This document shows positions 60,087-64,000 of a stretch of DNA of 64,000 nt, one piece after another (position 1 is the stretch's first letter; every line of letters begins with the position of its first letter). The stretch is taken from contig VGXS01000002.1 in assembly GCA_016873225.1 (NCBI GenBank), positions 62,001 to 126,000 on the forward strand, read 5' to 3'. The position numbers and the translations under genes were made by a program. The notes under the pieces were generated by a model, which saw only the letters and a program-made list of their open reading frames with translations, ran no database searches and was not told the origin of the DNA. This DNA is from Planctomycetota bacterium (GTDB taxonomy: Bacteria > Planctomycetota > Planctomycetia > Gemmatales > Gemmataceae).

Positions 60087-60462
60087 GTTGAGTGCCGCGC
60101 GGCGCTTATTCAAGGCGGGGCCCGACATTCATGGGGTGCTCCGGGAATTGATGGTCCCGGTGGAACAAACCCCGATCCGCTTTTCCTCCTGATTGCCGAA
60201 CACGGTTGTCCGACTGGGCCGGACGAACCCGCGAACTGAAACCGGGCCAAGGGTTTCGGGGCGCCGCCCCACCCGGGCCTTCGTCGGCCAAGGAAGGCTT
60301 TCCGCCCCGCGCACCGCCGGATGTCTTGGCACCAGGCGCGCGTCCTGGCGGGCCCCTGACATCGATGCCGGCCAGGCAACAACTCCCCCCGCTGAATTGT
60401 CCCGCCCTTGCGGCGAACAAACTGCGTGAGGCGGGGGAGAAGTGAATGGCGCCAGCCGGAAA

Positions 60463-60512
60463 CTTCCCCCCGGGAATGAATCTTCCCCCTATTCGGGCGA
60501 ATATGGGGGAAG
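60463..60512 (+). promoter_or_regulatory. Competing hairpins in the leader of the repeat-bearing ATPase gene
   Basis: CTTCCCCCTATTCG (60482-60495) pairs with CGAATATGGGGGAAG (60498-60512) with one bulged base, ending 11 bases before the AAGGAG ribosome site. A second CTTCCCCC copy (60463-60470) and CCCGGGAAT (60469-60477, versus ATTCGGG at 60491-60497) can form alternative pairings. Confidence 0.5.
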
Positions 60513-60537
60513 GCATATCGCCAAGGAGAAAACGACC

Positions 60538-63303
60538 ATGACGCAACCAACCATCGCCATCAGCACCAACCGCCCCAATCTCATTGTCGGGGTGGCGGCA
60601 TGCCTTGAGGCCAGGGGACTTTCCGTCCGCCTGGCCCGCGGTTCCCGCAAGGATGATTTCCAGGTCACCTACAAGCCCGGCGTGTCTCTGGCCCGAGTGG
60701 CCGAGGTGGTTTCCGCGCTCAGTCCCGCCGAACCTGACACCGTCAGGGAGGAGACCGAGCAGGACCACGACATCGTTGTCAGCATTCCCGTCAACAGCAG
60801 GGGAAGCGAGTCGCATCGACAAACCGGCGTTGAGATCGTCGCCGATTCCGAGGCGCTCGCCATTACGCTCCGTGACTTCTTCCAGTCGTTGGGATACGCC
60901 CAAATCAGCCACTCCGTCAGCGGCGTCACGGCCAACACGCTGTCGATGGCCGATGATGTTCCCACGGGAATCGTCGCGTTGATACGCCTCAAGATGTCGG
61001 AACTGGGTTGCGCCGTCGGGCAGGTCGATACCAGCCGAAGCCGCCCCAGGCACCATGGGAACAAGATCCGCGTCGAGGCGAGGGACCGCTCGCTCGAGTC
61101 GTTGCCGGCCGTTGAACGGTTCCCCGTCCATGTTTCCAGCGACAGCCTCGAGTTCGGCCAGGAACTGGTCGAACTGCTGGACGGCCATGGCTTCAAGGTT
61201 CAACTGGGTGAACCGCTTGATTCCGCCAAGGCGATCGGGAATCCGCCCGCCATCAAGCTTGGCGCGATGGGAGGAACCGCCGGCCTTCCCTCCAGGGGCA
61301 TGCTCTTCCATGTGGTCGAGGAATACCTCAGGTCCAAGAGGGTTGACCTCGACCGCTACCCGTTGTCGATGCCCGTCCCCCCCGGCACCCAGTCGGTTCC
61401 CGTGGAACCCGGAATCAACGCGGTCACGGCGGCCGTGGTGGTTCTTCCGGTGGCCGCCTGCCTTTCCGGCAAGGCGCGCTCCTGCGGCGGGGCCTTCCAC
61501 GACCGATTCAATGTCAAGATCCGAACCGATTGCCCCGAGCATTCCATGGTGGCCGATCTCCGTGAACGGTTGACCAGGGACGGCTTCGCCCACATCGAGG
61601 TCGAACTCTGCGCCGAACGCGAAATCCGCCGACAGCCGCTCAATATCAGCGTCGGGGCGGCCTTCCTTCATCCGTCGGTCATCCAATCCGTGCGTGATGC
61701 CGTGACGCATGCCACCCGTCCGCTCCTGGACTCGGGCATCGCCGCGAGGTTTGATCCCCGCTTCAACTCCGAGGACCCGGACATTTTCATCAACCTGCCG
61801 GTGATCGGCTGGGAAGATGGATCCATCGTGGAGGAGATGGGCAACGCCGAGGGATTCGACCTCAAGATCCACTGCGAGGATCCCGCGGAATGGGATGATG
61901 TCATCGACAAGCTCCGCGCGATGGGTTTCGATGAGTTCGACATCGAGTCGGCATCCGTCTCCCGTCCGGAGATGAAGTTCGGCGGGGCGCCCGCAAGGCT
62001 CCTCGATCGAGTCGCCAAGGTTGTGGGAGATCAATCCGGCGTGGTGCTCGGAAGGACCAAGGCGTGGCCCGACCCCGATGACGATATTTATCTGTTCCTC
62101 CCCCGCCGTCCGTCCCGGGGACCGGGCGGGCGCGGCGATGAATCGGATGATGTGGATCCGTTTTTCACCGACGACGGGGAGGAGCCGGAGTCCTGGAGGC
62201 CTCCCATGGAGGCCGATGGCCCCTTCGTGCAGGCGACGGGCGGCAAGGTCCGTGTCGGTGGCCTCGATTTGCCGAGGCGCTCCGGACGCCGCGATCCGCT
62301 GGCCCCAGCGACCGACCGCTTCGCCCACTTCTGCCTGGACGAGAAGACCGCCGACACCCTTCGCCATGTGGCCGTCTCCGTGCTCATGAACGAGCCATGC
62401 CTGCTCGAGGGTGAAACCTCGACCTCGAAGACCTCCACGATCGAGTACCTGGCGTCATTGCTCGGCCAGCCGATCGTCCGGATCAACCTGAACGGGCAGA
62501 CCGACACCGGCGAACTGCTCGGCCGCTTCGTCCCCAACGAGTTCGCCGGGGAAGGCCAGTCCCTGGCGGGATGGCGCTGGCAGGATGGCCTCGTGATCCA
62601 GGCCCTGCGCAACGGATGGTGGCTGCTGCTCGACGAGATCAACCTCGCCGAGACGCAGATCCTCGAGAGGCTGAATTCCCTGCTGGAGGCCCATCCCTCG
62701 CTTGTCCTGACCGAGCATGGCAACGAGATCTTTGGCGACAATGGAACGCCGATCCATCCTGATTTCCGAATCTTCGGGACCATGAACCCGGCCGAATACG
62801 CCGGCAGGAGCGTGATGAGCCCGGCCTACAAGGACAGGTGGCGGGGCTTCCGCCTCGTGCCGACCCCCGGGGAAACCGAATACCGTTCCATGCTCAGGCT
62901 CATGGTGCTGGGCCAGCAACCCAGCCTGGTGATGGATGGAACCGCTTATCCTGGCGCCCAGGTTGAGCCCAGCCATCCCGGACTGGACGGCCTCGAGGGA
63001 ATCGAGGACGAGTTGGACTCCCTCGCCAGGTTCCACGCAACCGCGGCCAGCGCGGCGGCTGACGGAAATGGTTCGCTGGCGGCGCGCCGCAAGGAGAGGC
63101 CGGTGTTCACCCGCCGAAGCCTGCTGAGCGTTCTGGACTTCGTTTGCCGCGTGGTGCGACCGGCGGCGGGAACCCCGGCGGGCCCGGCGCTTCGCCGGGC
63201 GGCGGTCCGCTACTACGCCGACCGCGTGGGGGGCGATGACGACAGGCAAGTGCTCCTGAGGCTGCTTGAAGCCTCGGGCCTTGGACAGGAGGCCACCCGA
63301 TGA
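60538..63303 (+). CDS. AAA ATPase (CobS/dynein-related subfamily) with five N-terminal repeats
   Basis: A protein of 921 residues from ATG 60538 (AAGGAG nine bases upstream). Residues 5-522 hold five copies of an alpha/beta unit of about 80-110 residues, starting near 5, 97, 196, 324 and 439; each opens with a short strand then a helix ending in Gly-hydrophobic (LEARGLSV, FQSLGYAQ, LDGHGFKV, LTRDGFAH, LRAMGFDE). An acidic linker follows. The ATPase spans about 600-800: P-loop GETSTSKTS (625-633), Walker B WWLLLDEINLAE, TMNPAEYAGRSVMSPAYKDR. It overlaps the next gene by four bases (ATGA). Probably the motor of a CobS/CobT-like pair. Confidence 0.8.
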   Translation: MTQPTIAISTNRPNLIVGVAACLEARGLSVRLARGSRKDDFQVTYKPGVSLARVAEVVSALSPAEPDTVREETEQDHDIVVSIPVNSRGSESHRQTGVEIVADSEALAITLRDFFQSLGYAQISHSVSGVTANTLSMADDVPTGIVALIRLKMSELGCAVGQVDTSRSRPRHHGNKIRVEARDRSLESLPAVERFPVHVSSDSLEFGQELVELLDGHGFKVQLGEPLDSAKAIGNPPAIKLGAMGGTAGLPSRGMLFHVVEEYLRSKRVDLDRYPLSMPVPPGTQSVPVEPGINAVTAAVVVLPVAACLSGKARSCGGAFHDRFNVKIRTDCPEHSMVADLRERLTRDGFAHIEVELCAEREIRRQPLNISVGAAFLHPSVIQSVRDAVTHATRPLLDSGIAARFDPRFNSEDPDIFINLPVIGWEDGSIVEEMGNAEGFDLKIHCEDPAEWDDVIDKLRAMGFDEFDIESASVSRPEMKFGGAPARLLDRVAKVVGDQSGVVLGRTKAWPDPDDDIYLFLPRRPSRGPGGRGDESDDVDPFFTDDGEEPESWRPPMEADGPFVQATGGKVRVGGLDLPRRSGRRDPLAPATDRFAHFCLDEKTADTLRHVAVSVLMNEPCLLEGETSTSKTSTIEYLASLLGQPIVRINLNGQTDTGELLGRFVPNEFAGEGQSLAGWRWQDGLVIQALRNGWWLLLDEINLAETQILERLNSLLEAHPSLVLTEHGNEIFGDNGTPIHPDFRIFGTMNPAEYAGRSVMSPAYKDRWRGFRLVPTPGETEYRSMLRLMVLGQQPSLVMDGTAYPGAQVEPSHPGLDGLEGIEDELDSLARFHATAASAAADGNGSLAARRKERPVFTRRSLLSVLDFVCRVVRPAAGTPAGPALRRAAVRYYADRVGGDDDRQVLLRLLEASGLGQEATR

Positions 63304-64000
63304 GTGCTCTGAAAAACCACATCGGCGCCACGCCGATCGACCTGCTTCGCGGCCTGGCATCGGGGCTTTGCCACGATGCCAGGATCACCGTCGAGGAGTC
63401 GCCCGGCCAAAACTGGGCCTACGACCCCGATAGGAATGTGATCCTCGTCGGAAGTGACGACCTTCGCCGCAAGGGCGTCTTGCCCTGCGCCGCTATCCTG
63501 GCCCACGAGACCGCGCACTTCCACATTTCCCGGTACAACATGTACCGATTCGAGCATCGTTCCGTGCCGATTTTGAGGATCTTCTTCAACGCCCTTGAGG
63601 ATCCCCGCGTGAACAACTGGATCCAGGGCCGATACCCCGGCACCCGCCGGTGGTTCCAGTCGCTCCTGGCGGCGGAAGGCTTCATCCGCTGCGCCTTGCG
63701 CGGACCGGAACACATGGTGTTCGGGCTTCGAAACTGCGCCGAGGCCCTCATGGGCTGGGACACATCACGGATGCCTGTCATTCGCTCGGCGCGCCTCGCC
63801 GGCGCGCTCGAACGCACGGCCAAGGCCCGCAGGGCTTTTAGCGAAATCCTTCCGGGGAATGGAATCGGTGGCGGCGGCCCGGCCGAATCTCCCGGACGCC
63901 CTTTCCTCGCGGAAGTGGCGCCCCGGCTTCTCAATCCCGTTCCCGCCATGATGACGGCCCGGGAGCAGGAGGTACACCTGTTTCAAATGCGCGCCGTCCA
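63300..64000 (+). CDS. HExxH metalloprotease-like/CobT-type partner protein, N-terminal part (cut by window edge)
   Basis: The frame is open from ATG 63300 (ATGA overlap with the ATPase) to the end of the window, at least 233 residues. AAILAHETAHFHISRYNMYR contains HETAH (His69, Glu70, His73), a zincin-type active site, followed by FNALEDPRVNNWIQGRYPG with an acidic third-ligand candidate. The C-terminal part, which in such pairs often carries a vWA domain (CobT-like), lies outside. Adjacency to a CobS-like ATPase supports a MoxR/vWA-style machine, but the vWA domain is not visible and is inferred. Confidence 0.75.
   Translation, partial: MSALKNHIGATPIDLLRGLASGLCHDARITVEESPGQNWAYDPDRNVILVGSDDLRRKGVLPCAAILAHETAHFHISRYNMYRFEHRSVPILRIFFNALEDPRVNNWIQGRYPGTRRWFQSLLAAEGFIRCALRGPEHMVFGLRNCAEALMGWDTSRMPVIRSARLAGALERTAKARRAFSEILPGNGIGGGGPAESPGRPFLAEVAPRLLNPVPAMMTAREQEVHLFQMRAV

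Follow-up and report, generated by a model that had tools for sequence, protein, structure and literature searches.

MoxR-type AAA+/VWA pairs are widespread, and few of their clients are known. In the NorQD system, a finger of the VWA domain enters the pore of the ATPase and ATP turnover twists the partner, while client contacts have been suggested at the MIDAS site and the N-terminal domain (PMC13036017, PMC9976466). Midasin also has a VWA/MIDAS domain, which reaches the pore of its ring (PMC13036017). A further family that bears on the present work is LytR_C, whose known members are envelope proteins that contain the domain alone or together with an LCP domain; Rv2700 and VirR (Rv0431) are named solo LytR_C proteins, and VirR and LCP proteins can bind each other through their LytR_C domains (PMC11832169).

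Here we analyse a two-gene locus in a 64,000-nucleotide stretch of DNA from a Planctomycetota bacterium of the family Gemmataceae (GenBank assembly GCA_016873225.1, contig VGXS01000002.1, positions 62,001 to 126,000), hereafter called the window. The locus pairs an ATPase carrying a large N-terminal arm with a VWA protein containing an HExxH motif, and its features are collected in Table 1.

Results

Table 1. Features of the ATPase gene and its partner, with positions in the window.
Feature	Position	Strand	Basis or remark
ATPase gene, 921 aa (five-unit N-terminal arm, linker, AAA_5 core)	60538..63303	+	
Unit 1, residues 5-87, LytR_C-like	60550..60798	+	DSSP of the model; profile match to unit 5; weak LytR_C match of the consensus
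Unit 2, residues 97-183, the copy that has diverged most	60826..61086	+	Strand/helix order in the model; weak profile matches to units 1, 3 and 5
Unit 3, residues 196-305, LytR_C-like, low-confidence loop 282-295	61123..61452	+	Units 3-4 E 6e-8; sub-threshold LytR_C in L034/L033
Unit 4, residues 324-421, LytR_C-like	61507..61800	+	Units 4-5 E 1e-10 over 88 columns
Unit 5, residues 439-522, LytR_C-like	61852..62103	+	Best structural matches 6q10 and 2m5y
Arm-to-core linker, residues 523-585, acidic/proline-rich	62104..62292	+	Sequence
AAA_5 core, residues 621-767, C-terminal ATPase part	62398..62838	+	Pfam E 8.5e-18
Walker A, variant GETSTSKT	62410..62433	+	Kept as GETST[SA]KTS in relatives
Walker B, WLLLDE	62620..62637	+	Conserved in relatives
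Partner gene, 624 aa in the whole genome (L002:7301-9175)	63300..64000, continues past the window	+	CobT-type VWA, MIDAS DLSGS
HExxH motif (HETAH) of the partner	63504..63518	+	Present in 14/14 partners compared

The ATPase core and its VWA-HExxH partner

The AAA_5 core is the sole Pfam detection on the ATPase, and its membership is borne out by the score together with Walker A, Walker B and sensor 1, motifs that are conserved despite the variant form of Walker A. Specifically, the MNP motif and Walker B are conserved across the ATPase relatives, and Walker A, in which S or A replaces the last glycine before the lysine, is nevertheless conserved alongside Walker B. Cousin ATPases have a Walker A of the form GPTAxAKTT, which also has no glycine preceding the lysine. 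The preliminary description of this DNA had called the ATPase CobS-like, an assignment that gives way on comparison with solved proteins: the closest relative of the core is midasin (88 bits in one AAA domain), followed by CbbQ (38 bits) and CobS (28 bits), and the NCBIfam CobS equivalog yields 21.4 bits against a cut-off of 558.6. Unlike midasin/Rea1, the present system has one AAA domain per chain and places the VWA domain on a separate chain, and no such arm is reported for midasin. Simple hydropathy reveals neither a signal-like N-terminus nor a clear membrane segment in the arm-bearing ATPase. We take an antisense frame at 60106-62367 (753 codons) to be a probable side effect of codon use at high GC.

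The start of the partner gene overlaps the stop of the ATPase gene by 4 bases (63300). The partner bears the HExxH motif near its N-terminus and the CobT-type VWA domain, which scores above the cut-off for CobT_C, towards its C-terminal end. All 14 partners compared keep HExxH, an N-x-x-E-D-x-R motif about 30 residues downstream and the MIDAS, so that the HExxH partner proposed earlier from this locus is real; no Pfam peptidase family matches the partner at E<=0.01. The adjacency of a VWA gene with a D-x-S-x-S MIDAS identifies the two as a MoxR AAA+/VWA pair. NorQ/NorD, CbbQ/CbbO and other such pairs likewise consist of an AAA_5 ATPase gene and an adjacent gene with a C-terminal VWA domain and MIDAS, but they differ from the present pair, which adds a large repeat arm on the ATPase and HExxH in the partner. 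Additionally, VWA proteins encoded on Proteus/Vibrio plasmids or mobile elements (L050 3920-5575 and L051 3920-5575) resemble the partner over its HExxH region; the block that holds their genes also encodes an AAA ATPase and a DUF3150 protein and contains radC.

The arm consists of five copies of one predicted fold

Residues 1-522 of the ATPase are, in the predicted structure, five copies of one fold, and we regard the repeat as real because profiles, model and conservation all support it. For the profile-profile comparison, the units were cut from a seven-sequence family alignment. Units 4 and 5 (E 1e-10, 88 columns), units 3 and 4 (E 6e-8, 102 columns) and units 1 and 5 (E 1e-4, 82 columns) match in register, the strongest pairs aligning end to end, while unit 2 is diverged and gives partial matches only. 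Nine of the ten unit pairs score above all 60 column shuffles, the exception being units 2 and 4 (2/60).

The AlphaFold model has a mean pLDDT of 81 and a pTM of 0.60. As assigned by DSSP, every modelled unit follows the order beta-alpha-beta-beta-alpha-beta-beta, except that in unit 3 a low-confidence loop takes the place of the fourth strand. The five units open with strands at residues 6-10, 97-102, 197-201, 325-330 and 441-446, matching the starts (5, 97, 196, 324 and 439) given in the preliminary description, whose five-fold repeat is upheld by the comparison with shuffled profiles and by one strand/helix order throughout. Its count of three strands per unit has to be raised to the five of the model, and the strand motifs that it listed are right except that unit 2 has neither the G turn nor the LP ending. 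A single-sequence model of units 1 and 2 was poor (pLDDT 51) and was excluded from the fold claims; its strand/helix order largely agrees with that of the first model.

The units are probably LytR_C-like

No unit reaches the gathering cut-off of LytR_C (PF13399, 22.2 bits), and the ATPase of the window itself has no Pfam LytR_C match. The best scores come from unit 3 of two relatives, with 20.6 (L034) and 17.9 bits (L033), and the E value is 8.7e-4 in a relative's unit 3. For the consensus of unit 1, no Pfam family other than LytR_C comes up at E<=10 (E 0.064, 14.6 bits, 63/86 profile positions). We also ranked LytR_C sequences against 105 background fragments from other proteins of the window, a comparison that rests on two solved chains and a hand-typed generic consensus. 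With units 4 and 5 the LytR_C sequences rank first or close behind the first, as two of three do with unit 3; for unit 1 only the LytR_C consensus ranks high, and unit 2 gives no signal.

The two best solved-structure matches of the model, both on unit 5, are 6q10 (Z 6.0, 83 residues, 2.9 Å) and 2m5y (Z 5.8, 82 residues, 3.1 Å), Z values near 6 being middling and such as a common arrangement can produce. Both are LytR_C-type structures, the best hits of a generic LytR_C consensus among solved proteins; 2m5y is the C-terminal domain of VirR, and 6q10 is of the Rv2700 type. They have in common with the units the strand-helix-strand-strand-helix order plus closing strands, the 'GF' ending helix 1 and the G turn that follows strand 3. 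Unlike LytR_C proteins, the units stand five in tandem, are fused to an AAA+ ATPase, score below the Pfam cut-off and belong to a protein in which neither a signal nor a membrane segment is evident. Tandem BamA POTRA arrays gave Z ~4 across several units and were set aside at an rmsd of 10-20 Å.

The arm has no convincing sequence match among solved structures (best E 0.5), whole-arm Foldseek returned nothing at E<=0.001 in the PDB or among viral models, the plasmids, viral contigs and single Rhodococcus megaplasmid searched yielded no further LytR_C sequences, and no classical LytR_C was found in 392 Planctomycetota genomes. None of the tests pointing to LytR_C is strong by itself; in combination they are best read as a LytR_C-like fold, and the unit is probably a divergent member of that fold and not wholly unknown, although it fails the Pfam cut-off for formal membership. 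The preliminary description had considered the domain unrecognised, which holds in that no Pfam family covers the units at its cut-off and fails in that sequence and structure both point to LytR_C.

Distribution and age of the arm and the gene pair

The arm-bearing ATPase occurs in 7 of 95 genomes of the family Gemmataceae, in three genera. The arm was not found in the other genomes of the 392-genome Planctomycetota sample, which added only core relatives devoid of it, or in the viral contigs searched. The nearest named relative lies on a contig of a Planctomycetota bacterium with 94% identity, and contig ends divide the ATPase in two genomes. The order of the five units is identical in all seven relatives, which makes the duplications old. 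For 33 of the 35 units the best cross-lineage match is the same-numbered unit, and the five copies are therefore older than the family. Between lineages the arm retains 24-25% identity versus 49-65% for the core, and thus diverges faster.

The ATPase and VWA-HExxH genes are adjacent in every relative whose contig covers both. The flanking genes differ between genera while the pair is kept: a ribosomal protein S1 gene follows it in the genus of the window, and another genus has a different neighbourhood. The two genes therefore form the module, and no third gene common to all neighbourhoods was found.

Related ATPases carry other N-terminal modules. In one (L040, G463:C98, 2695-6786), HEAT-like repeats and two AAA_5 domains share a single chain encoded next to a VWA-HExxH gene; lineages seem to swap the N-terminal module. 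In others of 424-477 aa (L037, L038 and L039, from G245 and G371), a short N-terminal alpha/beta module replaces the five units; by eye it looks BRCT-like, Pfam detects no BRCT in it, and profiles detect no link between it and the five units.

Discussion

We read the locus as a two-gene remodelling machine of the MoxR/midasin AAA+/VWA type, in which a VWA-zincin protein serves as adaptor and the arm handles the client or localises the complex, and we give this reading a probability of about 0.5. Judging from its family, the ATPase would form a ring, on which the VWA-HExxH partner may dock through its VWA finger, as NorD does on NorQ, with the client presumably held at the partner's MIDAS site. 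The five LytR_C-like domains of each subunit, whose fold is taken from the model, could make up an arm whose task is to capture the client, to position it or to tether the machine. Since LytR_C domains bind one another (PMC11832169), the arm may act through domain-domain contacts, protein-protein contacts being its most likely mode of action, as for LytR_C domains elsewhere. The elongated or repetitive ligand that the preliminary description would have delivered to the HExxH partner is a possibility that gains no support here. ATP turnover would then distort the client, which the zincin-like HExxH site may cleave. Against such a machine with a LytR_C arm count the sub-threshold LytR_C scores, the middling Z and the failure to find classical LytR_C in the 392 genomes, and also that LytR_C is known from envelope proteins, whereas in the ATPase neither a signal nor a membrane segment is evident. 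A bolder version, which we find unlikely, sees a new ATP-dependent metalloprotease or foldase: a midasin-like ring with five cytoplasmic LytR_C-like client-picking modules per subunit and a VWA-zincin protein that cuts or remodels.

The pair might instead be a dedicated activase of a metal centre or enzyme, of the NorQD or CbbQO type, that works without proteolysis; HExxH would then be a remnant with a structural or metal-binding role, while the arm would serve client specificity only. Both remodelling and metal insertion have precedents in the class (PMC13036017, PMC9976466), and variable N-terminal domains of such VWA partners have been suggested to set target specificity (PMC9976466). We hold this possible but not probable, as every partner compared retains HExxH together with the N-x-x-E-D-x-R that follows it and no further gene, for example one for a client enzyme, is common to all neighbourhoods. 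A narrower and somewhat more doubtful alternative concerns the arm itself, which may be a separate alpha/beta fold that resembles LytR_C by convergence and has an unrelated ligand, for example a nucleic acid or a repetitive polymer. The sub-threshold LytR_C sequence scores, the Z of ~4 of the POTRA arrays over several units and the lack of classical LytR_C in the phylum sample speak for it, but several tests, on different units, come back to LytR_C, and the POTRA matches superpose with the large rmsd given above.

That the pair belongs to a defence or conflict system akin to the MoxR-vWA ternary systems appears very unlikely: such systems occur in planctomycetes (PMC7159879) and the core matches phage CobS-like families, but PADLOC hits are marginal only and no third gene is common to all neighbourhoods, where the ternary systems have VMAP, iSTAND, FtsH or a beta-propeller as third component. 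Even less credible is a cobaltochelatase-like CobS/CobT pair, in which ring and VWA protein would drive metal insertion into corrin or porphyrin through CobN. The CobT_C-type VWA domain is shared with CobS/CobT, and CobS matches the core weakly. The present pair differs from CobS/CobT in that CobN/Mg-chelatase H (PF02514) was not found in 6 of the 7 pair-bearing genomes, the window's own included; these genomes are incomplete, three of those devoid of CobN being 91-93% complete. The preference of the core for midasin and its CobS score far under the equivalog cut-off point the same way. In the remaining genome, CobN-like matches fall in several open frames on a contig other than that of the pair (L052, G103:C121).

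All in all, the domain architecture at this locus is real and unusual, the machine that bears it is of a familiar kind, and its repeated domain is less unknown than was thought. An arm on the ATPase itself offers a handle for finding the clients of such a pair. If the units are LytR_C, they occupy an unexpected setting for a domain of envelope proteins and would help to show the role of the fold itself, which would be domain-domain contact rather than binding of envelope polymers. Should the metalloprotease or foldase reading prove true, LytR_C, a fold familiar from the cell envelope, would operate inside the cell as a substrate-handling arm.
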